Assembly (NCBI GenBank): GCA_963971535.1
Contig: OZ020599.1
Coordinates: 95,766,472-95,830,471 of the forward strand
Direction of reading: 5' to 3'
Source of the DNA: Notolepis coatsorum
Taxonomy: Eukaryota > Chordata > Actinopteri > Aulopiformes > Paralepididae
DNA: 64,000 nt
The notes beneath the pieces were generated by a model. That model saw only the letters and a program-made list of their open reading frames with translations, had not been told where the DNA came from and did not search any database. How positions within the stretch are numbered: position 1 is the stretch's first letter; every line of letters begins with the position of its first letter. Position numbers and translations under genes: made by a program. Shown here piece after piece: positions 2,815 through 58,330 of this stretch.

Positions 2815-4193
2815 CAGAACATGAGGTGAGGAGGACCTTCAAGAAAGTGAATATCAGGAAGGCAGCAGGACCGGACGGTATCCCCGGCCGCGTCCTAAAA
2901 GTCTGTGCCGACCAACTGGCCCCAGTATTCACTGACATATTTAACCTGTCCTTGGAACAGGCTGTCATCCCCACCTGTCTGAAGAAGTCCACTATTATCC
3001 CTGTACCCAAGAAATCCAAGCCTGCTTGCCTCAACAACTACCGCCCTGTAGCTCTCACCTCCATAGCCATGAAGTGCTTTGAGAAGCTAGTGAAGGGCTA
3101 CATCTGCTCCTCCCTCCCCATCAACCTGGACCCCCTGCAATTTGCATAACGCCCCAACAGGTCCACGGAGGACGCCATAGCCCATGTGCTGCACACAGCA
3201 GCATCACACCTGGACAAGAGGCAGGGGAACTATGTGAGAATGCTGTTCATCGACTACAGCTCAGCATTCAATACCATAATCCCCTCCAAACTCATAGCCA
3301 AGCTCAGGGACCTGGGCTTGAACTATGACCTCTGCCAGTGGGTCTTGGACTTCCTGACGGGCAGACCCCAGGTGGTGAAAGCAGGCAACTGCACCTCATC
3401 CATCACTCTCAACATAGGGGCCCCCCAGGGCTGTGTTCTGAGTCCCCTCCTCTACTCCCTGTACACACATGACTGTGTGGCACAGCGGAACAACAACACA
3501 ATCATCAAATTTGCTGATGACACAGTAGTGGTGGGCCTGATCTCTGCAAACGACGAGAGGGCCTACCTGGAGGAGGTCAAGGTTCTAGCGGGATGGTGTC
3601 AAGAGAACAGCCTCTCCCTGAACGTCAGCAAAACAAAGGAGATGATTGTGGACTTTAGGAGGTCGGGGGTCAGGGACTACAGCCTCCTCAGAATTGACGG
3701 GGCACCGGTTGAGAGAGTGAAGAGTTTTAAGTACCTCGGAGTCCACATATCCGAGGACTTGACATGGACCTCACACATTGACAGTGTTGTGAAGAAGGCA
3801 CGGCAACGCCTCTACTTCCTCAGACGCCTAAGGAAGTTCCAAGTCAGTCAGAAGATCCTTAAGAACTTCTACTCATGCACAATAGAGAGCATACTGACTG
3901 GCAATATCACCTCCTGGTTTGGGAATAGCACTGCACAAGACCGTAGCAGACTACAGAGAGTGGCCCGCTCAGCCGAACGCACAATTGGAGGGGGGCTTCC
4001 CACTCTCCAGGGCATTTACAACAAGCGGTGCATGGGCAAGGCTAAGATAATTATCAAAGACTCAAGCCACCCAAACAACTGCCTATTTGAACTGCTGCAG
4101 TCAGGCAAGCGATACAGGAGTCTCATGGCAAGCACAGAAAGACTCAGAAGAAGCTTCTATCCCCAGGTCATCAGGATGCTCAACGAACAATAA
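2802..4193 (+). pseudogene. L2-like ORF2, reverse transcriptase domain with one in-frame stop
   Basis: One reading frame spans the RT core and is broken only by a TAA at 3147-3149, where relatives have Tyr (QFA[13 protein letters not shown]). RT blocks are readable in order: [62 protein letters not shown], the catalytic FADDTVVVG (about 3509-3535), [15 protein letters not shown] and FKYLGVHI. A thumb and C-terminal region follows to the stop at 4191-4193. The catalytic Asp pair is intact, so damage is light and insertion fairly recent. The product would be the LINE polymerase; this copy is dead through the stop, the upstream frameshift and 5' truncation. Confidence 0.88.
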
Positions 4194-14998: not shown

Positions 14999-15269
14999 CT
15001 ATACTAGGTTATAGACTGCTATAGGCTACATTTATGAAGCCAATCGAAAGTTTAGCTAAATACGTAGCTAAAACCAGTAGGTCGGGCTAGCCGGGTAAGC
15101 CTGGAAGCTAACGGACTTGGAGATAGTTCGCTTAGGGTGACCAAACGTCCTCTTTTGCCCGGACATGTCCTCTTTTCACGCCCTGTCCGGGGCGTCCGGG
15201 GGGGGGGGGGGGGTTATAAATTCATGAAAATGTCCAGGTGTAATTGTTTTTCACGGGACAAATATGCAT

Positions 15270-15464
15270 GTTCTGTATCGTTAGTGGCTTAGCTTGGCAT
15301 CGCTACTGCACTATCTCGCGTACGTGCACGCGTACTGAATAAACCACAAATGTACCTCTAATACCAGTATTAGTCTGACCACACCCCTCATCAGCTTACC
15401 TTCATAAGCAGGTGTGTGGTCACCTGCTCTCCTCCTTCTCGCTTTCACCACAAGGAAGAGGTGC
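15270..15464 (+). repeat. DIRS copy A, left inverted terminal repeat
   Basis: Begins GTTCTGTATCGTTAGTGG (unique tip, 15270-15291), then GCTTGGCATCGCTACTGCAC. From there to about 15464 it is the near-perfect complement of 20372-20540 (for example TCTGACCACACCCCTCATCA). Confidence 0.85.
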
Positions 15465-18400
15465 CTCGGTAGATCCCCACACTTGACACCATGATGGAAG
15501 AAATTGGATTAGGAACAGCTTGGGAAACAAGGATACGTTGACATCATATCTTTATTTTCTCTCTCACTATTTTCGAGAAAATACGGCGATATTGTCTTCG
15601 TACTGGAGTGTCTAGAAGATGATGATCATTCTACAAACCCTCCACCGGTTTTCGTATTGGGAGCACGCCGCTGCATGCTTCTCAACTGCAGTTCCTTGCT
15701 GTGTTTGTTGGGGTGAAACCTGTCAGGCCACAGCTGAACTGTCGGACATGCCGCTGTTGTGAGGAGCGGTGCGTTCCAGGTTGGGTGAGTAGTGTTTGCT
15801 GGCGGGCTCCACTTGTCTGTTAGTGCTATGGGGGCTACTTGACAAAGTTTATGGAAACCGGCCCCAGGCTAGGGTCCTTTGTTTAGCCGTCTAGGCGACA
15901 GAAGGCCTTGGTCTGGCGACCATTATAGTTTTAACTAGTGGGCCGCGACCATTGACACTGGTGATCCCTGTGTGTTCTGGACGAGTGGATTCTCTCTGTC
16001 ACCGTGTTAAGACCCCATCTTTCATATCCAAATGAGAGTATTCCTTCACGAGGGGATATGTGCATGTAATGTGCGATAGCGGCAGATTCATGTTCAAAGT
16101 CAGCTATACAGGCCAGTTGGTACTGTGCTGATTCCGCCGGACGTGGTAATGTCACCGTTGTGAAGCGGTGTTGACGTCTTGTTTTCTCTTTTCTCTTAAA
16201 AAGTGAGGAGGGTTCAGAACGGCGGCCTGTCTGGGTGAGTGTTATGTCATTGTTTACATGTTCATAGTTTACGGTTAGCCGGTCGGTGGCCTGGCGCGGG
16301 GTAGCTTGGCTTCTCGCGCGCCGCCGGGAGCTCGCTCCTGATCGCGTGCGTCGTTAGATCGGCGTCTCGCGAGCGGAAGCAATAGCACCCGAACGGTTGG
16401 AGCAGCCGTTAGCTTGATGCTATTCTGTTGAACGTGCTTTGATTTTAACATGTTTTACACTCTTGACCACGACGTCATCCTTGACAGGGGATGTTCGTCG
16501 ACCCTGCCTGAGCCTAGACGGGGATTGCGTCAACAAAGAGGACTGTAGCGACTGGTGGAGCGGCGACGCTGCCCGGATCGAACAACACAGGACGGCTGTG
16601 TTCTACTACGGTGTCTTGTGACTGCACTTCGCTGATCTGCGTTCCGGGTAGGTACGGGGTTGGCCAGACCTCATAACACGTCTTCTGGTTTTACCTTGCT
16701 AAATGTATTGTGAATAACGGTGTTTTTTCCCAAAACGTGTGTTGTTGCAATGCATTTGGGATACGTTGCGGGTTGTGTGTGAGCTGTTTTTGTCACTAGC
16801 AGTTAGCTTCTCCGTGCAGATCGTGATGTATTGATCTGGTTGTTGTGTGAGAAACATCATGGTGTTTATGTGTACCGTGTACTCACTACTAAGGCAACTA
16901 ACCTATGAAGCTATGCTTGGTGACGAGTGAGTAAAAGAATGTTCTTTCTCAGACTGTAATGACAATGAACAGTGAGTTCACACATTAACAGGTTTTCCTG
17001 TTTTAACTGGCCGTATTGAGGGTAAAATAGGAGGATTGTGTTTCCCCCCCCGGTTCCCTGGGGACTTTATCACCTCCTATCAGACATGTTGTGCATTAAT
17101 TGTGTCTTTTGTGTGGTAGGGATACGATGTAACTCTCAGCTTGATTGCTGAGGTTGTGCTAAATCTGCTGGAGAAACTTATTTCCTAAAGGGAAATTGGT
17201 TTGGTTGCTGTCATGTGTGCTTAGCAAGGCCTGTGGTCGATACTAATCAAGAATGATGTATTCTCTCATTGTGAAAAAAAACGGCGTTCCTCTGTTGAGT
17301 GTTTTTGCCATTTTTTGTAGGTGATGATGGGTTGTGTGTGTCATGTGACCTACAACTGGGTTGTACTGGCCACAGAAGCACATGTGTATGTTGGACCGGG
17401 GTTCTTAGAGCCCTCTCTATTCTGTGTTTTTCCTTAGTAAAAATCAGATAGCAGGTTAGCTCGTGCGCTGTGTGGAGCTGTGAAACGCTTCATAGAGCTG
17501 ACTATGACTGTGTCATATTCTCTTTTTGTCGTTACGTCGTATCATGGGTGTGGGGTCGTAAAGGGGTGAACTGGTAACCTTTCCTCTCCCCATTGTTCTG
17601 TCGGTCAGGGGTACACCCCCTGTCCTTCAAGGTTCCCGTCACGTGGCGGTTCGGCACGTTACGGGGGGGGGGGGGGGGGGGGGAGGGAGTTCCTGGTCCC
17701 ACGGCCTGGTATATTGGGCGTGTGCACCGCAGGAATTCCCCCGCCATAGAGTACGTCACCGTGCGCGTCTCTGTTGGTAGGACTTCCGTGTGCTGTTCAG
17801 GTCCATGTGATGGATCTGTTTTCAGGGGGGGTGGTCAGGGCTCCTCCTCACCAAGCGCCTACTCAGGCCTTCTGTGAGTTCGGACTCCTTCTTCCATGTG
17901 AGGAAGCCTCCATCAGAGTACAGAGCCTTCCTCCTCAGATTGTCAAAGTGAGTGGACCCTCTAGAAGGGTCCTTTTCTATTGTATGTATATTCGATTCAA
18001 TTCGTTTATTGAGTGTGTATGGGTTCGGTGCCTCTTCCCCGGAGGCCCTAAAACCAGTTTTTTACATGGCTCAAGGTGCAATATATTCTTTTCAATCTGT
18101 ACAGCTCGCGTGGGAAGTCTCTCTGGGGATCCCCGTCTCTTTCCTATGGGAGGGTGGTGGGATGTAAAAATGTGAAAAAATTTTACCCCGGCTGTGTAGA
18201 CTGGGATACATACTGTTGATGCTTCCTTCTTTCTATTCCAGAAGTGTTGGAGTTAGGGAGTGTCACACCCCTCTTGTCGTTCCCCTGGGCGCCTTGGGGA
18301 TTCAATGACAGGTCTAAATAGCCTGTTCATTGATGGGGGTGTGTCCCGACGCACGTATAGTGCTAGCTCGCTGTAAACAGGCGATTGACTGGCACGCCTT

Positions 18401-18882
18401 GGTTGCTTGTGGTTGAAACAGCGTTTTTATAAAGCAACTGAGATGGGGGTTTTTCCTCTTCCGGCGACCACATCCCATGACCTGGGTGGGTTGTCGACGG
18501 ATTCTCGTTCATGTCTGGGGGATGATGACGGGATGGATCTGAACATATGTAGTGGGGTCTCACGCCCTTGGGGTGGGCCACCAGGCGCGGTTCGTCCGAA
18601 CGTCTGGGTGGCGCCTTCTTTTCATGTTAAGATCAACACGCATATCTGCCCTTCTCCTGGAGTAGGCATGTCGGCGTGGTTAGGGCACGGGACTGGTTCT
18701 GGTCACGCTGGTCCAGATCAGTTGAACCCGTTGTCCGCCGGGGATGCAGATCTGCTGTTCTGGTACCCTGAGGGACTTGGGCTTTTTTCAGGGGGAAAAA
18801 TGCCAGGTCGGTCTGGGTGTCACAGGGTTAAGCGCTATGGAGACCCTGGTTGGGTATGTTTTTACTCAGCACTGTCGTCATG
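15465..18882. other. DIRS copy A interior, no recognisable ORF
   Basis: I find no RT, RNase H, tyrosine recombinase or gag-like motif in any frame. From about 15830 onward it aligns with copy B from 24960. Runs of G (17664-17682) and GTGAGT-type splice-donor-like sites (for example near 16220 and 15785) are present. Short open frames shared with copy B (for example around 17690-17870) reflect recent common descent and are not bounded by conserved starts and stops. Confidence 0.6.
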
Positions 18883-19002
18883 GCTTACAGCCATGCCATT
18901 CTGTACGCGCTCGATCTCGTCGGATCTCGGCCGCTACACAGGTTGGTCCTGGTTAGTACTTGGTTGGGAGACCGCCGGGGAATACCAGGTACGGTGTGCT
19001 TA
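18883..19002 (+). pseudogene. 5S rRNA-like segment in DIRS copy A
   Basis: 120 nt, the full length of a vertebrate 5S gene, follow the 5S order. They run GCTTACAGCCATGCC at the 5' end, CTCGATCTCGTCGGATCTCGG in the middle, then GGTTAGTACTTGG, TTGGGAGACCGCC and GGAATACCAGGTAC, ending GTGCTTA. The box A region (normally AAGCTAAGCAGGG) is changed to CGCTACACAGG, and no T-run terminator follows directly. The same segment occurs at the same place in copy B, so it was part of the ancestral element. A Pol III role is possible but unproven. Confidence 0.88.
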
Positions 19003-19660
19003 GGGGCTGGTTCTCCATTATTTTTCGCTCCTCTCTCACGCATGGCGAAGAGGGGCCTGTGGGGGTGGTTTTTTGACCTCCTCTGGTGACCCTGTGCTTC
19101 CCGTACCGCCAGGCCCGGTCCGAAGTGATGTTTGCGACCCGTAGGCCTGGGTTAACCCTTTTTGGAAACTGAAACACTTGTACTGCGGTATAGCCGGTGT
19201 ATACCCGCAGGTGTGTTTTGGAGTTTTTTCTTGAGGGGTTATAGGAACAACCACCGCATTGGGTAACACCGAGGTGGTTGATTCCCTGGTGTGTTGGAGC
19301 AGTGTCAACTCCCGGGTTCACCGTTTGAGGGTGCCCCTGCACGTTCATGACGTCTGCCAATCGTGTCAGCCTTCTCTGCCTCGACCCCTCTGGGTGGGGG
19401 TTGTTAAATGGAGGCTTGGTCATGCAACACCGCCAGCTTACGCTCCTTCCGCCGGGGCGGCTGTGTTCAGCTGTCCCCTCTGGCGCCTGTCTCGTCCGCA
19501 GTCTCCAGGCTAGGGTTAACAGCCTGTTGCCTGGTTTTTCCCCGGTGCGCTGCCTGCTTCCGTTGGTTAACCTTTTTGTGTGCTTACGGCCATGCTGACT
19601 GCCTATTCTGCAGGGTCAGTGTGCCAGGCGGTGTGCTATTGGGGGGACGGGGCCCGCTCG

Positions 19661-19767
19661 GCTTACGGCCATACCGACCTGAACACGCCCGATCTCGTCC
19701 GATCTCGGAAGCTGGGCAGGTTCTGGCCTGGTTGGTTCCGCCTGGGAATACCAGGTGCAGTAACTGA
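19661..19767 (+). pseudogene. Second, internally deleted 5S rRNA-like insert (copy A only)
   Basis: About 106 nt read GCTTACGGCCATACC ... CACGCCCGATCTCGTCCGAT ... GGAAGCTGGGCAGG, then jump to GGTTGGTTCCGCCTGGGAATACC and end GTGCAGTAACT. It is closer to genuine 5S in its first half than the segment at 18883. It lacks about 12 nt in the box C region. Copy B reads straight through this point (GCTCGGCTGAGGGGCC at about 28976), so this is an insertion in A or an exact loss in B. Confidence 0.85.
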
Positions 19768-20252
19768 GGGGCCTTTGTCCGAATACGCTGGCGATGTGGG
19801 GGGCGGGGCACTACGTGCCCACCTGGTGGGGTCTTGATGCTGGCATCATGGACTTCTCCGGGCCCCCATTCTAGGGAGTCCAGTCCTTTTGGTGGGTCTG
19901 GGTCTTCCTTCGTGCTCCGCTGCTACGGCCTTGCCACGGGGTTGGGTTTGCCCTTGACCCCGTGATTCTGGGGGCAGTAACGAGGTTGTTCCTCCGTTCG
20001 TTCCCGGGTGGCATGCGGGTTGTGCGTGTGTGTAGTCGTGGGGTCGAGCCACGGTCTGCTCACCCTGTGCGTTGAGTTGCTTGAGTGCCTCTTCGCACGG
20101 TCGGGTCCGTCGCCCTCCCGTGACGTCCCTAATAGGGGGGCTACCCTCCATTAGGGGGGGTCGGGGGGGCTCGGCCCTCCCTGTTCTGATGGTTTTGGGG
20201 GGCTGTCAGCGGGGTGTATTTGTCAGCCAAGTGGCTCCGCTTGGCCTCCCTT

Positions 20253-20349
20253 GTGCAGTAGCGATGCCAAGCTAAGCCACTAACGATACAGAACGTTAGG
20301 TTATGACTATAACCAAGTTCTGTTAGTTAGGGGCGATGCTTGGCATCGG
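20253..20349 (+). repeat. DIRS copy A, internal complementary region
   Basis: 20253-20293 is the exact complement of the left tip 15271-15311. 20292-20349 is the exact complement of the right tip. The two meet at CAGAACGTTAGG, which is what the complement of a head-to-tail circle junction would give if left and right ends share GTT. An imperfect hairpin (arms 20231-20245 and 20266-20280, 12 of 15 paired) overlaps its start. Confidence 0.85.
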
Positions 20350-20371
20350 ACGGCCGCTGCAGCCCTTGTCC

Positions 20372-20586
20372 TCACCTTGTGGTGAAAGCTTGGGAAGGAG
20401 GAGAGCAGGTGACCACACACCTGCTTATGAAGGTAAGCTGATGAGGGGTGTGGTCAGACTAATACTGGTATTAGAGGTACATTTGTGGTTTATTCAGTAC
20501 GCGTGCACGTACGCGAGATAGTGCAGTAGCGATGCCAAGCATCGCCCCTAACTAACAGAACTTGGTTATAGTCATAACCTAACGTT
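20372..20586 (-). repeat. DIRS copy A, right inverted terminal repeat
   Basis: Complementary to the left repeat up to 20540. It then has its own 46-bp tip ending CATAACCTAACGTT. A perfect 6-bp hairpin, GCGATG-CCAAG-CATCGC, marks the change from shared to unique sequence (20529-20545). Confidence 0.85.
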
Positions 20587-20749
20587 AACCATTGACTGGC
20601 ACGTTGCATTGAATACTACGGTACTCTGTTGCGTGTGACATATTCCCAGAGAAGACTGCTTTCAGTGCTTTGTCGGCAGCTCTACTACGCTCACACACAA
20701 ACAGAGGAGGAAGCGGACAGATCCGACCAGCATTGATTATATAGCGAAA

Positions 20750-20842
20750 ATGTACATTACAGATGAACTGCAGAGAAAATTCCCAATTTACTGTCCCGGT
20801 CGAGACAAATGGGAGGCGGAGTGCAACGCGTGCAAAGCTTGA
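20750..20842 (+). pseudogene. BED-like zinc finger fragment of a hAT transposase
   Basis: A short frame encodes 30 residues, MYITDELQRKFPIYCPGRDK then WEAECNACKA, before a stop. 'LQ-kFP----gr----A-C--C' is the start of the BED-type zinc finger found at the N-terminus of many hAT transposases (the C-x2-C pair is present, the later His pair is not). It lies inside the hAT element 15133-21629, consistent with a non-autonomous derivative. Confidence 0.55.
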
Positions 20843-21600
20843 CCATATGTTTCTTTGTCTAATAAAGGTGCCAGATACAGAGAATGGACACAGAAAAACA
20901 TTTAAAATAAAGCTGTGCGAGGCGAGAGTTTGATGGCAAAGTTGACTGATTGATTGAAGTATGCAGCTATACAGAGAGAGAAAGAAAATAATTGTACACA
21001 ATTTTGATGCCTCAAAATTATGTTTTGGTTTTATTTATGATGATATAAGATGCTTATGATACAATCATTCTAAGGATTACATGTGTAATACATTTGTTTT
21101 GTACACTAATTGCAAGTTATGCAAATGTAAACAAATCCGAAACTGCATAGTGCACTTTATTATTAGATACTTTATTAATTCATTATCTTTGTGAGGTTAC
21201 TGTTTTATCATTTACATTACATTGAAAAGATACAAAGATATATTTTAAAGCTGGATTTTCTAATACAGAAGAGGTATTATTTAGAACATTAATTCATATA
21301 TTTTTTGTTATTTATTTTGTCCAGTAAGACTTGAAAGGAGATATTATTTTGTTATAGGTTGATTTTTAAGTAATTTTCTTGAGATTTGTCAGATAGATTA
21401 CTTTAGGCATAATAAAGCATGTTGAGTAACTTTGGTTATAGAGATATATTCTTTTGTTATATAAAATAATATAAATAATAATTTTCTATCCATACAGAGG
21501 AGGCATAGGCCTACTTTAAATATATAAAAATTATAAGGCATCTTTGAGTACATTTTGAGTACCCTTTAAGTATCTTGAGGCTGGGGGCAGAGTGTCCTCT
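20843..21600. other. AT-rich remainder of the hAT element
   Basis: AT-rich DNA without recognised genes, ending in the hAT terminal repeat. Confidence 0.5.
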
Positions 21601-21776
21601 TTTTTGGAAATCATAATATGTTCACCCTAAGTTAGCCGACAAGTTAACAAGGCAAGACCACCAAATACAATAGAATGGCCTATTGGAGGAGGGGAAGTAA
21701 GAGGCAAGAGAGGCAAAGAATGAGGCCAAACTAACTGAATTTATAGACTACTGTAGGCTACAGTGAGTTTATGGAA

Positions 21777-22406
21777 CGCACTAGCCGGAATAAGGAACGC
21801 ACTAGCCGGAATAAGGAACGCACTAGCCGGAATAAGGAACGCACTAGCCGGAATAAGGAACGCACTAGCCGGAATAAGGAACGCACTAGCCGGAATAAGG
21901 AATGCACTAGCCGGAATAAGGAACGCACTAGCCGGAATAAGGAACGCACTAGCCAGAATAAGGAACGCACTAGCCGGAATAAGGAACGCACTAGCCGGAA
22001 TAAGGAATGCACTAGCCGGAATAAGGAATGCACTAGCCGGAATAAGGAACGCACTAGCCGGAATAAGGAACGCACTAGCCGGAATAAGGAATGCACTAGC
22101 CGGAATAAGGAACGCACTAGCCGGAATAAGGAACGCACTAGCCGGAATAAGGAATGCACTAGCCGGAATAAGGAACGCACTAGCCGTAATAAGGAACGCA
22201 CTAGCCGGAATAAGGAACGCACTAGCCGGAATAAGGAATGCACTAGCCGGAATAAGGAATGTACTAGCCGGAATAAGGAACGCACTAGCCGGAATAAGGA
22301 ACGCACTAGCCGGAATAAGGAATGCACTAGCCGGAATAAGGAATGCACTAGCCGGAATAAGGAATGCACTAGCCGGAATAAGGAACGCACTAGCCGGAAT
22401 AAGCCT
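21777..22406. repeat. 21-bp minisatellite, 30 copies
   Basis: Thirty head-to-tail copies of AACGCACTAGCCGGAATAAGG. Because 21 is a multiple of three and the unit lacks stops in several frames, three long frames stay open (heptads such as RTSRNKE). Most variation is one C-to-T change at the CpG of AACGCAC (11 of 30 units read AATGCAC or similar), with rare changes elsewhere. Confidence 0.98.
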
Positions 22407-23050
22407 CTGCTAGCGCGCCGGCAGGGTAACCGGCAGACCTGACAGAAGGGTAGTTGAGATTAAGAAGAGGAAGCAGGTTACAAATCAGTGGACTACGGCA
22501 GCCGGGAAAAGCCTCTGTGCTAGCGTGTCGGGAAGCTAACCGACAAGCTAACCGACAGGCTAACAATTGCAAATTTAGAAAAAGAGCAAATCTATCTGGT
22601 AAATATGTAACCCACAGAGCAAACCTGACTAACGGAAGGGTAGTTGAGATGAAAATGTAGGTTGTACCGTAGATTCCGTCGTGTTGTGGATGTGTAGAGC
22701 CGTCCAAAACACATCCGTCCTAACACCACAAGGACCCAGGGAGGGTTCCCTAAACTGTTCTTAGCGCGATGGATCTCAATGACTTAAGAGATCTTGTTTG
22801 CTTGTTTACAACTTTGGTCTTTTCTGGCAGCGAGAGGTTATTTGGTTAAACGGAACAGGAGTGTTAAACCAAAATGGAGCCAAGACTTTTTTGGACCACG
22901 CTGACCATGTATTACATCGCCCCTCGCGACAATGGTGAACTCCTGGTAATTAGCTGACTGTCTGCCATACCAGTAGCCTTATTTCATCCGTTCAAGGGCT
23001 GTCTATACAATGGAACATCACAGCACTCGCCAGCACTCGCCCCCCTTCTC
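22407..23050. other. Unassigned stretch, possible LINE 5' region
   Basis: Contains repeated GCTAACCGACAAG-like motifs (about 22530-22565) and no recognised gene. Similar GCTAACGGACTTGG sequence lies at 15108 on the other side of the hAT insertion, so both may belong to the 5' part of the LINE whose ORF1 is at 14329-14998. Confidence 0.35.
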
Positions 23051-23054
23051 TCCC

Positions 23055-23205
23055 CTCTCCTCAAGGTCTGTCTGCTCCTGTAGCGCCTGCCCTCCCCCTC
23101 CTCAAGGTCTGTTTACTCCCACAGCGCCCGCCCTCTCCCCACCTCCTCAAGGTTTGTCTGCTCTTGCAAGCCCCCCACCCATCCATCCCTCAAGGCCTAA
23201 AAGGC
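23055..23205. repeat. Pyrimidine-rich tandem repeat, about 45 bp, three to four copies
   Basis: Units contain CCTCCTCAAGGTCTGT followed by CTCC and a CAGCGCC-like stretch, at about 23068, 23098 and 23143, with a partial copy at about 23190. Confidence 0.75.
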
Positions 23206-23219
23206 GAGGCACATGCCCC

Positions 23220-23892
23220 TAGGTTGGGAGTCTCATGGCCAGTACAGAGAGACTCAGAAGGAGCTTTTATCCCCAGGCCATCAGGATGCTTAATGACTCC
23301 ATGTAACAACCCATCATCTACACTCATTGCACACACATCCACATGCACACGCTCACTTTTAAACAAACACTCACCTTAACACTCACTTTAGACACTTTAA
23401 CACTACATTATATTTATCTATTATTAAAGAGATTTGCACTGCATTCATACCTCATTTGCAATTGCACCTTACCTCAAAGTGTTGCACCTCATTTTATGCA
23501 TTGTTTACTAATTTTTACTACTTTAGATTCTAACCCTAACTAACCTTATTGTCATGCCTAATATACTATCCTACACTATAGCACTCAACACTTTGATTAA
23601 CATTGTTACTCAGCTGATAAATGTGTGCCCTTCCTGATGACTTGTCGTACAGAACTTGTAAGTCGCTTTGGATAAAAGCGTCAGCTAAATTACAAAATGT
23701 AAATGTTTATTGTATATTCCTCTTTACTTACTTTTTTCTTTTTTTTAAACTTACTTTTGACTTACTTTCTTACTTTTCTTCTACTTTTACTGTATGAAGC
23801 ACACTCTCAGGGGCTCATACAAAACCAAGCATTTCACCGTAAAGTACGTATATTTTATTATGATATTTAATAAACAAACTTGAAACTTGGGT
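23220..23892 (+). mobile_element. L2-like LINE 3' end with inserted SINE tail
   Basis: Starts in the C-terminal ORF2 region (GAGAGACTCAGAAGGAGCTT, as at 4138-4158) and continues through a 3' UTR alignable to 4194-4650. It ends AATAAACAAACTTGAAACTTG. At 23573-23705 a SINE 3' part is inserted (GTAAGTCGCTTTGGATAAAA, then AAATGTAAATG), matching 49830-49970. Confidence 0.8.
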
Positions 23893-23919
23893 TGTGCCGA
23901 TGGGTGATGACGTCTGGGA

Positions 23920-24240
23920 TTGCCAATCCTCCCATTAGGTCACATCATCAATCAGTACAATGTATTTCATAGTTATGCAGATAACACCCAATTATACATC
24001 TCTGTTAAGCCACTGGGGCCTGACTCAGATGGCCTAAGCTCTCTGACTGCCTGCTTGGCTGATATATATAAATGGATGAGCAACAACTTCCTAAAGCTAA
24101 ATGAGGATAAAACAGAGATACGTTTACTTTGCATGTATTGCCAATGCCTTTGTCAACATCATGTTGATTTCTTTGGGGGTCGTTTGAGCCCAAACAACCG
24201 AATGGCACTTAAGGAGACTTGTGCAAAAATGTATATTAAT
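23920..24240 (+). pseudogene. LINE reverse transcriptase relic
   Basis: PLGHIINQYNVFHSYADNTQ, then LYISVKP and WMSNNFLKLNEDKTEI, match the RT palm block of fish LINEs ('LPLG-ii--h-i-fh-YADDTQLY'). The catalytic YADD has become YADN. The frame is lost after about 24130. It lies directly behind an L2 tail but belongs to a different LINE clade. Confidence 0.72.
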
Positions 24241-24959
24241 TAATATTCAGGTGCCTTGCTCTCTCCGTAGCCTGTGTCTGTATATCTCCATTTCTCCTCT
24301 CTGCCTTGCCGCTTGATTGACTGCCAGGCGCAGGGAACAGCTTACAGGAGCTGCACAAATTCATCCACTGATCAAATCATACGGGCACACAACTCGCTAC
24401 AGGAGTTATATCCGCCATTATGAATGAAAGGATGTCTGTCATCGTATCAATTGTGATGTTCTTTTGCCAGAAAGTAGTACGCCCCCACGAAAGTGCCACT
24501 GAAAACATTGCATTCATATTTGCAATAGTTTAACAATCTCAACATAAATCAAATATGTTGACTCAATAAGATAAAACACTAGAGCATGTATAATGCTCAT
24601 AAAAGCAATAGGCCTGTTCTATTTTGATTTAGTTTGACTGCGCTGAGTTGCAGTGAATGTCTCTCTACCACACTGTCTCTCTCTCTCTCACCTCCCCCAG
24701 CCCAGGTCTCTCTTGCGGTTGCAAAGTTTTAACAATCCAGCCGGATCACGCAAACAAGTATTTGTTGAGCAACAATACAATAAAAAATTAAACAATCTGA
24801 TGAACGGATGTATTTCACAACATCAGTGGAGAAAACACATTTAGTTTTCACAGGATTTGAACAATAACCTAGACTTGCGCGTACCGCTGTCGACCTAATA
24901 TACAGGAGGAAATGGGAGATGGAGAGAGAGAGTGGGGGAAAGAGAGAAAGAGAGACAGA
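24241..24959. other. Unassigned non-coding stretch
   Basis: No gene or classified repeat recognised; it ends in a purine-rich run (AGAGAGAG, 24917-24959) at the left break of DIRS copy B. Confidence 0.5.
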
Positions 24960-27900
24960 GGGGCTAGTTGACAATGTTTATGAAAACCGGCCCCAGACTA
25001 GGGTCCTTTGTTCAGCCTCTTAGGCGACAGAAGACCTTGGTCTGAAGCCCATTATAGTTTAACTAGTGGGCCACGACCATTAACACTGGTGATCCCTGTG
25101 TTTTCTGGACGAGTGGATGTTTTCTCTGTCACCGTGAGCCCCATCTTTCATATCCAAATGAGAGTATTCCTCACGAGGAAATATGGGCATAGATGTTCGG
25201 TAGCGGAAGATCTGTGTTCAAGTCAGCTACAGGCCATTTGGGTATTGTGCTGGCTCCGTCGGGTGTTGGTAAAATCACCGTTGTAAAACTGTGTTAACAT
25301 CTTGTTTCTCTTTTCTCTTAAAAAGTGAGGAGGGTTTCAGAACGGCGGCCTGTCTGAGTGAGTGTTATATCATTGTGTACAAGTTCAGGTGATAGCTGTT
25401 TAGCTTACGTACTAGTGGTGGCCTACTGTTAGCCAGTCAGCTGTTAGCTGCGGCGCTAGTCTGCTGTGATCACTAGGTGGCCTACCTGGCTAGGCTAGGA
25501 AACGTTAGCTTGCTGCTATCGGCCGAGGCCCAGCGCGGGGTGGCTCCGGCCCCTCGCGCGCCGCCGCGGTTCCCAACTCCCCTCTCCCTCACGGGGAGAG
25601 GCGGGGGGGATTCGAAGTCTCCCCTCTGGTCGCGTGCGCCGTTCGCTCGGCGTCTCGCGGGCAGGGGCGGTAGCGACCGACGGTTAGAGCGGCCGTTAGC
25701 TTAATGCTACTCTGTTGAACGTGCTTTGATTATAACATGTTTTAAACACTCTTGACTACGACGTCATCTTTGACAGAGGATGTTCGTCGAACCTGCCCTG
25801 GGCCAGGACGGCAAGGACTGCGTCAACAAGGGGGACCGTAGCGACGGGATGGAGCGGCGACGCTGCCCAGATCGACAACACAGAACGGCTGTGTTTACTA
25901 CGGTGCCTTGAGACTGCACTTCGCTTGATCTACGCTCCGCGTAGGCAAGGTTTGGCCAGACCTTGTACACTTCTTCTGGTTTTCCCTTCTAAATGTTTTG
26001 TAAATAACGATGTTTTCCAAAACGAGTGTTGCTGCACTACATTTAGGATACGACGCGAGTTATGGGTGAATTGTTTTGTCACTGGTATTTAGTTTCTCCA
26101 TGCAAATCGGGTTGTTGTTACAGATGTGAAAATGATCTGGTTTGTTGTGTTGAGAAACATCATGTGTGTTTATATGTACCGTGTACTCACAACTAAGGGG
26201 GTTAACTAACCTATAAAGCTATGCTTAGTGACAAATGAGTAAAGAATGATTATTTTCTCAGCCTGTAATGACAATGAACAGTGTGTTCACATATTAACAG
26301 GTTTTCCTGTTTTAACTGGCCGTATTAAGGGTAAAGTAGGAGGATTGTGTTTCCCCCCGGTTCCCTGGGGACTTCTTCATCCTCCTTTCAGACATGTTGT
26401 TGCACTACATTGTGTCACTGTGTGGTAGGGATACGATGTAACCATTAGCTTGATTGCTGAGGTTGTGCTAAAACTGCTGGAGAAACTTTATTTTCCTAAA
26501 AGAAAAGATTGTTTGGTCGCTTTCGTGTGTGCTTAGCAAGGCCTGTGGCCGATACTAATCGAGAATTATGTATTCTCTCATTATGAAAAACGGCGTTCCT
26601 CTGTTGAGTGTTTTTGCCATTTTTTGTAGGTGATGATGGGTTGTGTGTGTCATGTGACCTACAACTGGGTTTGACTGGCCACAGAAGCACATGTGTAAGT
26701 TTGGTACCGGGGCTCTTGGAGAGCCCTCTCTATTCTGTGTTTTTTCCTTAGTAAAAACCAGATAGCAGGTTAGCTCATGCGCTGTGTGAAGCTGTCAGAC
26801 GCTTCATAGAGCTGACTATGACTGTGTCATACTCTCTTTTTGTCATTACATCGTATCATGGGTGTGGGGTCGTAAAGGGGTGAACTGGTAACCTTTCCTC
26901 CCCCTTTTTTCTTTTGGTCAGGGGTAAACCCACCTGTCCTTCAAGGTTCCTGTGACGTTGCGGTTCGGCACGTTACAGGGTGAGGGGGGGGGGGGGGGAG
27001 TTTCCTGGTCCCACGGCCTGGAATATTGGGCGTGTGCACCGCAGAAATTCCCCCGCCATAGAGTACGTCACCGTGCGCGTCTCTGTTGGTAGGACTTCCG
27101 TGTGCTGTTCAGGTCCATGTGATGGATCTGTTTCGGGGGGTGGTCAGGGCTCCTCCTCACCAAGCTCCTATTCGGGCCTTCTGTGAGTTGGGACTCCTTC
27201 CGTGAGGAGGGAGCCTCCTTCAGAGTACAGCGCCTCCTCCTCAGATTGTCAAGGTGAGTGGACCCTCTAGAAGGAGTCCTACTCTATTGTGTATGTATTC
27301 GATTCAATTCGATTATTGAGTGTGTATGGGTTCAGTGCCTCCTCCCCGGAGAGCCCTAAAACCAATTTTTTACATGGCTCAAGGTGCAATATATTCTTTT
27401 CAATCTGTACAGCTCGCGTGGGAAGTCTCTCTGGGGATTCCCGTCTCCTTCCTATGGGAGGGTGGTGGGATGTAAAAATGTGAATTTTTTTTACCCCCGG
27501 CTGTGTAGACTGGGATACATACTGTTGGTGCTTCCTTCTTTTCTACTAAAAATAGTTGGAGTTAGGAAGTATCACACCCCTCTTGTCGTTCCCCTGGGCG
27601 CCTTGGGGATTCAATGACAGGTCTAAATAGCCTGTTCATTGATGTGGGTGTGTCCCGACGCACGTATAGTGCTAGCTCGGGGTGTTCTGTAAACAGGCGA
27701 CTGACTGGCACGCCTTGGTTGCTTGAGGTTAAAACGGCGTTTTTATAAAGCAACTGGGATGGAGGTTTTTCCTCTTCCGACGACCAAATCCGACGACCTG
27801 GTTTGGTTATCGACGGATTCTCGTTCATATCTGGGGGATGATGACGGAATGGATCTGAACATATGTAGAGGGGTCTCACGCCCTGGGGGTGGGCCACCGG

Positions 27901-28201
27901 GCGCGGTTCGCCCGAACGTCTGGGTGGCGCCTTCTTTTCATGTTTAAGATCAACACGCATATCTGCCCCTTCTCCTGGAGTAGGCATGTCGGCGTGGTTA
28001 GGGCACGGGACTGGTTCTGGTCACGCTGGTCCGGATCAGTTGAACCCGTTGTCCGCCGGGGATGCAGATCTGCTGTTCTGGTACCCTGAGGGACTTGGGC
28101 TTTTTTCAGGGGGAAAAATGCCAGGTCGGTCCGGGTGTCACAGGGTTAAGCGCTATGGAGACCCTGGTTGGGTAAATTTTTTACTCAGCACTGTCGTAAT
28201 G

Positions 28202-28320
28202 GCTTACGGCCATGCCGACCTGTACACGCTCGATCTCGTCAGATCTCGGCCGCTACACAGGTTGGTCCTGGTTAGTACTTGGTTGGGAGACCGCCTGGGA
28301 ATACCAAGTACGGTGTGCTT
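28202..28320 (+). pseudogene. 5S rRNA-like segment in DIRS copy B
   Basis: About 119 nt: GCTTACGGCCATGCC, CTCGATCTCGTCAGATCTCGG, GGTTAGTACTTGG, TTGGGAGACCGCCTGGGAAT, ending GTGTGCTT. It sits in the same context as the copy A segment (both preceded by TTTACTCAGCACTGTCGT). It is closer to canonical 5S at its 5' end and in box C (GACCGCCTGGGAATACC) than copy A. The box A region is altered in the same way (CGCTACACAGG), so that change predates the split. Confidence 0.88.
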
Positions 28321-29441
28321 GGGGCTGGTTCTCCATTCTTTTTCGCTCCTCTCTCACGCATGGCGAAGAGGGGCCTATTGGGGTGGTCTTTGACCTCCTC
28401 TGGTGACCCTGTGCTTCCCGTATCGCCGGGCCCGGTCCGAAGTCATGTTTCGTCGACCCGTAGGCCTGGGTTAACCCTTTTTTGAAAACTGAAACACTTG
28501 TACTGCGGTATAGCCTGTGTTTTGGAGTTTTCTTTTTTTTTCTTTTTTCTTGAGGGGTTATAGGAACAACCACCGCATTGGGTAACACTAAGGTGGTTGA
28601 TTCCCTGGTGTGTTGGAGCAGTGTCAACTCCCGGGTTCACCGGTTGAGGGTGCCCTTGCACGTTCATGACGTCTGCCAATCGTGTCAGCCTTCTCTGCCT
28701 CAACCCCTCTGGGTGGGGGCTTTTTAAATGGAGGCTTGGTCATGCAACAACACCAGCTTACGCCCCTTCCGCCGGGGCGGCTGTGTTCAGCTGTCCCCTC
28801 TGGCGCCTGTCTCGTCCGCAGTCTCCAGGCTAGGGTTAACAGCCTGTTGCCTGGTTTTTCCCCGGTGCGCTGCCTGCTTCCGTTGGTTAACCTTTTTTGT
28901 GTGCTTACGGCCATGCTGACTGCCTGTTCTGCAGGGTCAGTGTGCCAGGCGGTGTACTATTGGGGGGACAGGGCCCGCTCGGCTGAGGGGCCTTTGTCCG
29001 AATACGCTGGCGATGTGGGGGGCGGGCCACTAAGTGCCCACCTGGTGGGGTCTTGATGCTGGCATCATGGACTTCTCCGGGCCCCCGTTCCAGGGGGTCC
29101 AGTCCCTTTGGTGGGTCTGGGTCTTCCTTCGCGCTCCGCTGCTACGGCCTTGCCACGGGGTTGGGTTTGCCCTTGACCCCGTGATTCTGGGGGCAGTAAC
29201 GAGGTTGTTCCCTCCGTTCGTTCCCGGGTGGCATGCGGGTTGTGCGTGTGTGTAGTCGTGGGGTCAAGCCACGGTCTGCTCACCCTGTGCGTTGAGTTGC
29301 TTGAGTGCCTCTTCCCACGGCCGGGTCCGTCGCCCTCCATTAGGGGGGGTCGGGGGGGCTCGGCCCTCCCTGTTCTGATGGTTGTGGGGGGCTTTCAGCG
29401 GGGTGTATTTGTCGGCCGATGGCTCTCGCTCGGCCTCTCTT

Positions 29442-29535
29442 GTGCAGAGAGTGACGCCGAGCGAGAGCCATACGATACAGAACGTTAGGTTATGACTATA
29501 ACCAAGTTCTGTTAGTATGGTGACGCTCGGCGTCC
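29442..29535 (+). repeat. DIRS copy B, internal complementary region
   Basis: Starts GTGCAGAGAGTGACGCCGAG and reaches the junction CAGAACGTTAGG at 29478-29489. It continues as the complement of B's own right tip (29711-29772). The first part does not match copy A's left tip exactly and should be the complement of B's lost left tip. A perfect 16-bp inverted repeat (29419-29434 with 29456-29471) overlaps its start. Confidence 0.82.
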
Positions 29536-29559
29536 GACGCCGCTGCAGCCCTTGATATC

Positions 29560-29772
29560 GCCTTGTGGTGAAAGCTTGGGAAGGAGGCGAGTGGGTGGCC
29601 CCACCCCTGCTTATATGGGTAAGCTGATAGGGGTGTGGTCAGACAAATATTGGGATTAAAGGTACATTGTGGTCTTTATTCAGTGCGCGTGCACGTGTGC
29701 GAGGACAGTGCAGAGAGTGACGCCGAGCGTCACCATACTAACAGAACTTGGCTATAGTCATAACCTAACGTT
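29560..29772 (-). repeat. DIRS copy B, right inverted terminal repeat
   Basis: Matches the right repeat of copy A (CCTTGTGGTGAAAGCTTGGG, GGGGTGTGGTCAGAC), with B-specific tip changes. A perfect 7-bp hairpin, GTGACGC-CGA-GCGTCAC, replaces the A hairpin. Confidence 0.8.
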
Positions 29773-29878
29773 TTGCACACGTTGTTTTGTCTCTTGCATT
29801 GCCATGTACAAAATGATGGTTTCAATGTTACAGGCAGCCATGCTGGAAGAAAGAGAACTACATAAACATTCTATGTGA

Positions 29879-54858: not shown

Positions 54859-57800
54859 TCAATCAACAGCCCCTCTGCTCAATCGAGAAAACAGCGGAGA
54901 CCAAAGGTCCCGGAACATCCACCCCCGGCCGCGCTCCTCCAAGGTCAATCTCTCCAATGGAAGAAGCTGGGATATCTGATCTTGAAACATCTCAAAAGTG
55001 GGCGAAGAGTCATTTTTCCAAAACAGGAGAATACATTTCTTGGCAAAGTATGTTATAACAATCAGCAGTCTATATTTTTTTGGATCCATCTGGATCTCTG
55101 GTAATTCATTAAGTAAATAGGCACATGGGGACAAGTCAAATTCCGTTTCTAATACAGATTTTGTAAATAAATGAATACAATTCCAGAATCGTTTTAGTTT
55201 ATCACAGTGCCAAAACATGTGTAGAAATGTTCCTTCGTTAGTTTTACATCTAGGACAGTTTATTGAATTATCTCTAGACATTTTATGCATTTTTATTGGA
55301 GTTAAATACAATTTATGGATACATTTAAAATTTGCTTCTTTGATTTTGTTACTTGTAAATGGAAAGTGTATTCTATCACAAATATTTAGCCATGTATTTT
55401 CTGCAAATTTCATGGTTAGGTCTGTCTCCCAGATCCTCAACAAAGGCAAAAAAGATGAGTGACATTCTTTGGAGAAGATGTCATAAAATTCACTAATTTT
55501 ACCTTTAATTGTGGTCGATGACATTAGTATTTCTTCTATTTCATGTAATTCTAGTCTTAGTTTATTTTCTCTTCTCAGTATGTGTATAATGTTTCTCATT
55601 TGTAAATATTTAAAGAAATCAGTATTTGGGATGGCATATTCTGTTCTTAAATCCATAAATGATTTTAACTGCATATTTGTATGAAACAGGTCTTTGAATT
55701 GACTTATCCCCAACTGAGCCCATTTAAGTATATTAATTGATCTTAGATGTTTATCTAGATCAGGATTGTGATAGATAGGAGAGTATATGGAGGTACAATT
55801 GGTGATACCCAGTTTTTTTGAGCAGTCCTTCCAAGCACATAGTGTGTTAAAGACAGTGAAGCAATTACCTATGTTTCTTATCTTTTTAAATTGTTTTATA
55901 AATATGAGAGAGTCCAATGGTAACGGGTCAACAAATTTAGCTTCTAACTGAAACCACTGTGAGTCCCGTCTTCCCAACGACCATGACAGTACATTTCTTA
56001 ATTGGGCTGACCAAAAATAATGTTGGAGGTTGGGGAGACCGAGACCTCCCATGGATTCTGGTTTCATAAGTGTCAATAACTTTATCCTAGGCATTTTGTT
56101 GCACCAAATACATTTTGAGATGGGTCTATTCATAGATTTGAAAAATTCTGTAGATAAGTAACATGGTAACATTTGAAAAAGGAAATTTAGTCTTGGAAGG
56201 ACGTTCATTCTTATTACATTTATTCTTCCCAGCAGAGATAATGGGAGCGTGGACCATTTACACAAATCAGTTTTTATCTTTTCTATAAGAGGACAATAGT
56301 TTTCCCTGTACAAGTTCTCTAGTTGCGGTGTAATGTTTATTCCCAAATATTTAAACCCTTCTGGAGACCAATTAAAAGGATATGTTTTATACATCGTTTC
56401 AGTTGGGGTCATATGCAGGAGACAAGCATTTGATTTATTAAAGTTTAACTTATATCCAGAGTATTTTCCAAATTGTTCTATTTCGTTATATAAGTGTGAT
56501 AAGGACTGTTCTGGGTCTTTTATGTATAAAATAATGTCATCTGCGTATAAGGATATTTTATGTTCCTCCTTATTCATTTTCAGTCCTTTAATGTGAATAT
56601 TGTCTCGTACACATGACGCCAGCAATTCAATCACCATCGCGAAGAGTGAACTCGACAGTGGGCATCCTTGTCTTGTCCCTCTCGTTAGTGTAAAAAAAAT
56701 CAGAGGAAGCTCCATTGGTAATGACAGCTGCTTTAGGATTTTTATAGATTGCTTTAATCCAAGCGATAAAGTTTGGTCCCATATTAAGCTTGTCAAGTAT
56801 AGAAAAAAGAAAGTTCCATTCAACCCTATCGAAGGCCTTCTCTGCGTCCAGTGATAGGAGCAGAGAAGGGCTCCGACTGGTGTCCAAATGGTTTATTACA
56901 TTTAAAAGTCCCCTTATATTGTCAGCAGAATATCTCCCTTTTATGAAACCTGATTGGTCTGGATTAATCAATTTAGGCAAAATATCTTCTAGTCTTTTTG
57001 CTAATAATTTGGTTATAATCTTGTAATCGTGATCTAAAAGACTAATAGGTCTATATGATGAACAATTTAAAGGATCTTTGCCACTTTTGTGCAATACTGT
57101 GATATGTGCTAAGTTCATTGATTGAGGGAGTATTCTATTGTGACAGAAATTATACATCATTGCCATAAAAATGGGATGAAGTTCAGTCCAAAATTCTTTA
57201 TAAAATTCAGCAGAAAAACCATCTGGTCCTGGGCTTTTATTTATGGGCATTAACTTAATTGTGGCCAGAACCTCTTCTTTTGTAAATGATGAGTTAAGGT
57301 ATTGCTGGTCTAATTCAGACAATTTTGACAATTTCTTATTTTGTAAGTACTGGTCCAGTTGTTCTTGTGAATGAGAACTTTGAGATTTGTAAAGTGTATT
57401 GTAGAATTCAAAGAAAGCTTGATTAATCTCTTTAGGTTGATATGTTATATTATCATTGAGATTAATTGCTTTAATAGTTCTTTCAGTTTGTTCTTCCTTT
57501 AATTGATGGGCCAGTAATTTACTTGGTTTATTGCCAAATTCGTAATGCTTTTGTCTAACGTAATTCATTTTTGTTGTAATTTCGTTTGAAATATTAAGGT
57601 TTAGTTTGGCCCTGGCCACAATTAGTTGTCTCCAATTGTCCTCTGTAGACGCTGTCTTATGAAGTGCTTCACATCTTATTACTTCTCTCTCAAGTTCTTG
57701 TGCTTGTGCTCTTTTTACTCGCTTTTTAAATGAACCATATGAAATTATTAGTCCTCTTAAAGTGGCTTTTGCAGCCTCCCAGATAATGTTAGGGTCAATG

Positions 57801-58330
57801 GGGGGGTCATTATTTTCCTTTATGTAGTTTGTAATCCATGTTCGCGTTTTTACTTTAAATTCTTCATCTTGGAGTAATGAATTATCAAATTTCCATTGTT
57901 TGGTGAACGAGTTGTTCCTATTAAACTGAATAGTCATGCATATTCTGGCATGATCTGATAAAATGATTGGGCTAATTTCACATTCCTTTATCATGTATAT
58001 ATATTTTGAGTAAATAAAGGCATAGTCTATTCTACTATATGAGTTATGTACATTTGAGAAGAAGCTGTAGTCTTTAATGCCTGGATGTAATTCACGCCAG
58101 ACATCAATTAGGCCACTTTCTGCACATAACCCTTGAAGAACTTTTGAGGATTTGGAGCTATGGTTAGTTTGACTAGACTTATCCAATGCTGTCATTGTCA
58201 GATTAAAATCTCCCGCCATCACTCCAAAACCTTTACAGTTTTCATTGAACAGCCACACCATGTCAGGGGGGTTGTTTATAATTCCGTGATCGTCAGTAAA
58301 TGCTTTATGGAGTATGGGTTGATTTATTGA
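54859..58330 (-). pseudogene. L1-like ORF2: endonuclease remnant, RT, C-terminal zinc-knuckle region
   Basis: Upper frame (58261-56627): VMAGDFNLTMTALD and ILSDHARICM are the last endonuclease motifs; then the RT fingers, INKSPGPDGFSAEFYKEFW, SYRPISLLDHDYKIITKLLA, DQSGFIKGRYSADNIR and SLDAEKAFDRVEW. The lower frame (56823-54859) continues with GTRQGCPLSSSLFAMVIELL, the catalytic ISLYADDIILYI, FKYLGINITP, and a C-terminal CPRCKTNEGTFLHMFWHC knuckle. The two frames are offset at an A8/T8 homopolymer (56692-56699). One-base slippage there explains the break; everything else is open for over 1,100 codons. The enzyme would nick the target and copy L1 RNA. Loss of the 5' endonuclease half makes this copy inactive. 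Confidence 0.9.

Follow-up and report, generated by a model that had tools for sequence, protein, structure and literature searches.

Host 5S rRNA sequences carried as probable decaying passengers by an apparently non-autonomous DIRS1-like family in Notolepis coatsorum

Introduction

How does a host 5S ribosomal RNA (rRNA) sequence come to lie inside a retroelement, and what, if anything, does it do there? The question is raised by a 64,000-nucleotide stretch of the Notolepis coatsorum genome (GCA_963971535.1, contig OZ020599.1, positions 95,766,472 to 95,830,471, forward strand; hereafter the window), which holds two DIRS-like elements, copies A and B, each with a 5S-like segment in its interior. 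A first-pass annotation of the window had offered three ideas for this segment: an internal promoter for RNA polymerase III (Pol III), a binding site for 5S-associated proteins, or a passive capture. Among the three, passive capture fits best. We consider it probable that an apparently non-autonomous DIRS1-like family captured 5S from its host as a passenger, amplified it and carries it in a decaying state. The element is best explained as having captured host 5S at least twice, and its modules now exist in thousands of copies.

Results

5S modules in two copies of one family

The full-length 5S-like segment noted in both copies is confirmed: module 1 spans positions 1–120 of the Rfam 5S_rRNA model at 66.6 bits in A and 69.0 bits in B, against a gathering score of 38 (Table 1). 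It occupies the same internal place in each, with A and B 90.3% identical around the modules (A 16338–19663, B 25626–28984), and the two share the changes in the box A region, as the annotation had also described. Relative to host-type 5S, both copies carry A49C, A50C, A55C, G56A and G66T and have lost one base near 63. Because A and B belong to one family, the common module is one inherited feature rather than two events, and independent captures in the two copies were rejected on this ground.

The count of 5S segments was nevertheless too low. Copy A contains a further segment, module 3 (Rfam match 19661–19766), and both copies contain a probable additional remnant, segment 2, which shares both 5S ends with module 1. 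The remnant scores 32–33, compared with 28.9 for the best background window, and is weaker than modules 1 and 3; its score against module 1 of B was reached by 0–2 of 500 shuffles, and that against a reference 5S sequence by 2–9 of 500. All three segments lie in the sense of the element.

None of the modules resembles a functional 5S gene, since they score 66.6, 69.0 and 55.4 bits whereas the 47 best genomic 5S sequences score 108–117, and TTTT is absent directly after the module. They are an annotation trap all the same: 39 of 40 fetched family segments (19 of 20 copies of module 1 and 20 of 20 of module 3) exceed the Rfam threshold though they are not 5S genes.

Table 1. Features of copies A and B within the window
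Feature	Coordinates	Strand	Basis and remarks
5S module 1 in A	18883-19000	+	Rfam 66.6 bits, E 8.2e-12; 98/118 to host-type 5S
5S module 1 in B	28202-28319	+	Rfam 69.0 bits, E 1.8e-12; 101/118 to host-type 5S
5S module 3 in A	19661-19763	+	Rfam 55.4 bits (19661-19766); 13 nt missing around box C; full length in other copies
Probable 5S remnant 2 in A	19582-19637	+	Both 5S ends, middle lost; no Rfam match
Probable 5S remnant 2 in B	28903-28958	+	Counterpart of remnant 2 in A; below Rfam threshold
Module 3 site, empty in B (GGCT/GAGGGG)	28981-28984	+	Read from sequence; junction found 3,519 times in genome
Copy A, DIRS1-type element GTT...GTT, 5,317 bp	15270-20586	+	Exact termini and internal complementary regions; no Pfam match above cut-off in 29 of 47 stop-free pieces
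A left terminus and inverted terminal repeat	15270-15455	+	15267-15455 against 20564-20375, 94.8% over 191 columns
A right inverted terminal repeat and right end	20375-20586	+	Terminal comparisons
A left internal complementary region	20253-20294	+	42/42 to left end; ends in circular junction AAC
A right internal complementary region	20292-20348	+	57/57 to right end
Copy B, family of A, without left end	24960-29772	+	Alignment to A, terminus comparison
B right internal complementary region	29478-29534	+	57 bp matching the right end of B itself at 96.5%

A DIRS1-like element without recognised coding capacity

Copy A has the architecture of a DIRS1-like element. It is bounded by GTT at both ends, has inverted terminal repeats (94.8% identical over 191 columns) and contains two internal complementary regions (ICRs), one matching the left end (20294–20253, 42 of 42) and the other the right end (20292–20348, 57 of 57), which meet at a 3-bp circular junction, AAC, equal to the termini. 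Two DIRS-type elements had been reported; the termini bear this out in full for A, but B is 5′-truncated and retains only the right end and its ICR. Among 20 long copies, 16 have the ICR motif, and in 11 of these the left end matches it with 0–2 mismatches in 30.

The closest likeness is to the DIRS1-like elements of fish (PMC3266345). GaDIRS1 of stickleback has GTT at both ends, an AAC junction and a length of 5,322 bp, against 5,317 bp for copy A. The fish ICRs are listed there at 46–56 (GaDIRS1) and 36–57 bp (here 42 and 57 bp), and TnDIRS1a, which ends in GAT, shares the AAC junction, inverted terminal repeats and two ICRs. Unlike these elements, A and B carry 5S and, in the pieces searched, have no recognised gag, RT/RNase H/MT or tyrosine recombinase gene. 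Of the stop-free pieces of at least 55 amino acids, the search took in 29 of the 47 in A and 10 of the 43 in B, or 39 of 90 overall; none gave a Pfam match above the cut-off, the lowest E value being 0.026, and seven stop-free pieces from other family copies likewise matched no Pfam family above the cut-off. On this ground we class A and B as apparently non-autonomous DIRS1-like derivatives. Between the two copies, 42 of 48 alignment gaps are not multiples of three.

The termini have changed more than the interior. A and B differ by 16.5–17.9% in three terminal windows as against 7.8% in the interior (16400–19660), and their termini and ICRs (20253–20586 and 29478–29775) are about 17% apart between copies, yet match within each copy. 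Differences between the right ICRs are repeated, with one exception, in each copy's own right end. As the ICRs change together with their own ends, which ICR-templated replication predicts, it seems that replication continued in both lineages once they had diverged.

A large family that retains module 1 where the flank is kept

We counted sequence patterns across the 3.42 Gb genome (4,787 contigs). The 16-nt core of module 1, with up to one mismatch, occurs in 7,043 places, compared with 10 for the reversed control. A 35-mer from the terminus, of which two are expected per intact element, matches 6,779 times and an upstream anchor 5,684 times. The exact 19-mer immediately 5′ of module 1 is found 5,712 times, and 5,527 of these run on into GCTTAC, the start of the module. 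No empty module 1 site with exact flanks was found in the genome; copies with changed flanks would escape this count. On contig C1, at least 94 of 98 upstream anchors have the module core behind them, and of 55 termini at its start, 46 have the exact module 1 flank, eight only a junction without module 3, and one no mark. The exact module 1 core precedes 48 of 51 filled module 3 junctions on this contig, but only 22 of 48 junctions that lack module 3.

The family thus appears, from its sequences, to be very large, young and apparently non-autonomous. Its most homogeneous group comprises copies with CATG-type (A-like) flanks, which at 0.30–0.35% pairwise flank divergence among 11 sequences are evidently very young. 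In public sequence collections the module string had one exact match, unrelated by eye, and the terminus had none.

Module 3 is probably a recent capture

Alignment to the species' own 5S, which the first-pass annotation had proposed as a check, separates the two modules in age. The 47 host candidates are the best scored, at 108–117 bits, of 112,738 first-look candidates. Eight fetched loci yield four distinct sequences, all beginning GCTTACGGCC and all with A17 and T61, bases that are mostly present in the modules as well. Module 1 differs from host-type 5S at 17–20 of 118 aligned positions, whereas over 116 nt module 3 of one copy, L099, departs from it by 2 substitutions. These two, G64T and G89T, are common to all 21 aligned module 3 sequences. 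As the L099 module is much closer to host 5S than module 1 is, module 3 is the younger. Two further markers were dropped: A17 and T61 do not prove common descent of modules 1 and 3, as host 5S itself carries both, and G16, seen in module 1 of B and in most copies of module 3, is not general in module 1, most B-type copies having A16.

The genome retains both states of the module 3 site, with 2,812 exact filled junctions and 3,519 exact junctions without the module. Twelve of 20 fetched module 3 copies are whole or one base short, one lacks 5 nt, and in seven a stretch of 13 nt at box C is missing. At seven flank columns that separate A from B, L099 is A-like at one and B-like at six, as are 14 of 15 long copies without module 3, a set picked by its likeness to B. 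Other full-length module 3 copies are A-like at 2–4 columns, and copies with the 13-nt deletion at 4–7, except L085 (partly N) at 2. The simplest order that these sequences allow is that module 1 was captured long ago, that module 3 entered recently on a B-like background, and that it then decayed towards the A type.

A different history would have module 3 deleted from B-type copies through the GCT repeats that border it, leaving a single old 5S set and no second capture. The junction without module 3 is indeed the expected product of a GCT/CT deletion. However, the L099 module is far nearer to host 5S than module 1 is, and it sits on the flank type of copies that lack module 3; we regard the deletion history as highly improbable.

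Junctions point to an RNA template

At the empty site the element reads CCCGCTCG GCT GAGGGG. The filled site, in all 20 copies of a set selected by the left junction, reads CCCGCTCG / GCTTACGG...GCAGTAA / CTG(A or G)GGG; the sequence after GCAGTAA is CTGAGGGG, with the CTGGGG variant in 5 of the 20. The insert is in sense, starts at 5S nucleotide 1 and ends a few bases short of the mature end. Its junctions show no target duplication of 7–17 bp, no spacer and no TTTT of a 5S gene. Taken together, these traits argue for an RNA source and a template switch out of and back into element RNA at a single spot, and we infer from the junctions that switching onto 5S rRNA is the likeliest capture route.

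5S retropseudogenes and 5S-derived short interspersed nuclear elements (SINEs) of the SINE3 type exist, which raises the prospect that a long interspersed nuclear element (LINE) inserted the module as a retropseudogene or SINE3, or that a 5S gene was captured as DNA during break repair. An exact-match scan for flank repeats of 7–12 bp recovered only the module-shared start around module 1 and none around module 3 of A. Although the window has a LINE 3′ tail at another position, and SINE3 elements are named in PMC10886601, module 3 is 5S alone between element sequences, with no SINE body or LINE-derived tail; comparison with the empty site reveals no target duplication, and no spacer DNA accompanies the insert. 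Both versions are therefore very unlikely. The likeness to SINE3 and other 5S-derived SINEs ends with the 5S origin, since those combine a 5S head with a LINE-derived tail and a target duplication, and the element here has DIRS termini.

Under the capture reading, an autonomous DIRS would move the element in trans; its reverse transcriptase, copying element RNA, would switch onto host 5S rRNA near the 5S 3′ end, copy it to nucleotide 1 and return to element RNA through the 3-nt overlap GCT. The captured 5S would then be amplified as a passenger and decay.

Modules not clearly conserved beyond their flanks

Sequence divergence weighs against a function. Among 22 sequences, pairwise divergence is 3.74% in module 1 and 1.63% and 3.42% in the upstream and downstream flanks; in the CATG group it is 0.59% against 0.30% and 0.35%. 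Module 3 diverges by 3.98% (flanks 2.85% and 0.93%), and by 3.60% in full-length copies (flanks 2.27% and 1.40%). On these figures, conservation in the modules does not clearly exceed that in the flanks. A set of 27 de-duplicated B-type copies varies less in module 1 (0.27% against 0.78–1.09%), but this was discarded as a sign of constraint because these copies had been picked by likeness to a module-centred query; a flank-anchored sample has no such effect.

With conventional box limits, module 1 is changed at 4 of 15 positions of box A in both copies, at 0 of 6 in the intermediate element (IE) and at one (B) or two (A) of 18 in box C. A run of five T begins 20–21 bases after its end. In module 3, gaps of 13, 5 or 1 nt around box C affect 9 of 11 CATG copies and 0 of 8 AATG copies among the 20 fetched, one copy not being typed. 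Promoter parts of the 5S were thus lost while the family kept multiplying.

These observations bear on whether the 5S internal control region is a working Pol III promoter from which the element, or a small RNA within it, would be transcribed in the manner of Cassandra or SINE3. The unchanged IE, the lightly changed box C and an L099 module only two changes from host type (64 beside box A, 89 in box C) agree with such a promoter, but the altered box A does not, and a Pol III transcript would end near 140 nt at the T run. Since 3.6 kb of the element precede the module, its promoter could not yield full-length RNA, and the box C gaps are concentrated in the most homogeneous group. The promoter idea of the first-pass annotation is therefore poorly supported: a Pol III role is unlikely on the sequences, and we hold the idea of a working promoter to be quite improbable.

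Could the 5S fold instead act as a handle in element RNA, binding L5, TFIIIA or a similar protein and helping nuclear export, import or packaging? Retention of module 1 in nearly all copies that keep its flank, repeated capture in sense and the high pass rate of fetched modules in Rfam are all compatible with a handle. Yet module 1 RNA is no more stable than its shuffles (z −0.13 and −0.84; −2.15 for module 3 of A), the end helix of the 5S has several disrupted pairs in module 1, many young copies of module 3 have lost 13 nt, and conservation shows no clear excess over the flanks. We find a handle role unlikely from these data; the 5S modules are probably decaying passengers and not working promoters.

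Substitutions within the modules fall preferentially on A. This applies to 10 of the 14 substitutions shared by both copies of module 1 (p 1.9e-4) and to 18 of 23 distinct changes in module 3 (p 3.9e-8), in a test in which A makes up about 23% of 5S, one host polymorphism was dropped from module 3 and alleles are not fully independent. In the modules (18883–19000, 19661–19763 and copies L080–L099) the A changes are A>G and A>T. Rare changes among 27 B-type copies are mainly C>T (47) and G>A (44), versus 21 A>G, and a flank-anchored sample has 15 G>T, 11 G>A, 8 C>T and 5 A>G. The sense strand of the element is poor in A, with 844 A and 1,381 T in the aligned part. The pattern suggests a bias against A at the replication stage, from RNA editing or reverse transcription.

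Other features of the window

By eye, copy A is nested in an older repeat (15131–21631) whose ends read CTTAGGGTGA... and ...TTCACCCTAAG. Between A and B lies a tandem array of a 21-bp unit (21773–22403; 30 copies, 97% matches). Reverse transcriptase frames of LINE type occur at 3150–4190 (+) and 54862–58330 (−), with RVT_1 matches at E 4.3e-23, 4.6e-17 and 8.3e-21, and a LINE 3′ tail of UnaL2 type at 23644–23698 scores 50.3 bits, just below its gathering score of 55.

Discussion

The most probable account of this locus is that host 5S entered a DIRS1-like family as a passenger, yet several observations weigh against it. Module 1 may be under mild constraint, as its divergence in the AATG group (2.79%) falls between that of its flanks (1.89% and 4.93%). 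Its part from 70 to 108, a region picked after looking and compared with a reference 5S, is less often hit by shared changes than the remaining positions (1 of 39 against 14 of 81; Fisher p 0.035), and the near-universal retention of module 1 also fits a function. An autonomous partner was not found. The template switch itself we infer and did not observe; the final bases of module 3 are missing, and its right junction has no clear microhomology. Published LINE-1/5S chimeras typically carry antisense, truncated 5S (PMC13174262). Finally, 16 of 32 junctions without module 3 in the first 45 Mb of contig C1 also lack the module 1 core, the box C core and the upstream anchor; these copies are possibly deletion derivatives, or have a different, possibly coding, interior.

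That last sample limits the claim that the module is fixed, which stands for exact flanks (5,527 of 5,712) and upstream anchors (at least 94 of 98) but not for copies that have lost the region together with the module. The first-pass annotation had looked to two signs against a role for the module. One, absence from most members, is not seen where the region is kept, though half of the sampled junctions just described show it; the other paired change at the neutral rate with a lack of transcripts, and modules 1 and 3 approximate its sequence half.

The occurrence of 5S inside non-autonomous retroelements is already known from Cassandra and Ajax. Cassandra is a plant terminal-repeat retrotransposon in miniature (TRIM) with 5S in its long terminal repeats (LTRs) and conserved promoter boxes (PMC10886601, PMC10853983), and Ajax is a nemertean TRIM whose LTRs hold a partial 5S, again with conserved promoter boxes (PMC10886601). 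The family described here shares with Cassandra its non-autonomy and the host origin of its 5S, and with Ajax its presence in an animal. It differs from Cassandra in having no LTRs, inverted termini, an internal 5S captured at least twice within the family, and promoter boxes that are not kept (4 of 15 box A positions changed in module 1; 9 of the 20 module 3 copies fetched gapped at box C). Where Ajax has the promoter part alone, and conserved, the present modules are nearly whole 5S with decaying promoter parts. Small-RNA chimeras of LINE-1 are alike in that reverse transcription by an element fuses the element's sequence with a small RNA of the host (PMC13174262). They differ in that the chimeric 5S lies at the 5′ end of LINE-1 and is typically antisense and truncated; here it is internal, in sense, nearly end to end and present in thousands of copies.

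The parallel with Cassandra could be taken further. The 5S rRNA, or its ribonucleoprotein with L5 or TFIIIA, might recurrently enter the replication complex and give a subfamily a brief advantage in transcription, export or packaging that aids its sweep, followed by inactivation and a fresh capture. We judge such a cycle unlikely.

What is new is the DIRS order, the internal position, the nearly whole 5S, the two or more captures per family and the series from empty site to decayed module. We found no report of 5S inside a DIRS element, a weak negative drawn from open-licence papers and mostly from titles and the openings of abstracts; a search of open-licence papers with the phrases we sought likewise found none on non-autonomous DIRS, and is as weak.

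Reconstructions of small-RNA capture by retroelements mostly start from one old event each. In the present case a single genome contains an empty site (3,519 exact junctions), a near-unchanged recent capture, intermediates and a decayed older capture in thousands of copies. With this series surviving side by side, the capture of host rRNA, its amplification and its decay become measurable step by step. The finding is relevant to DIRS replication as well, because it suggests that the DIRS reverse transcriptase switches templates.

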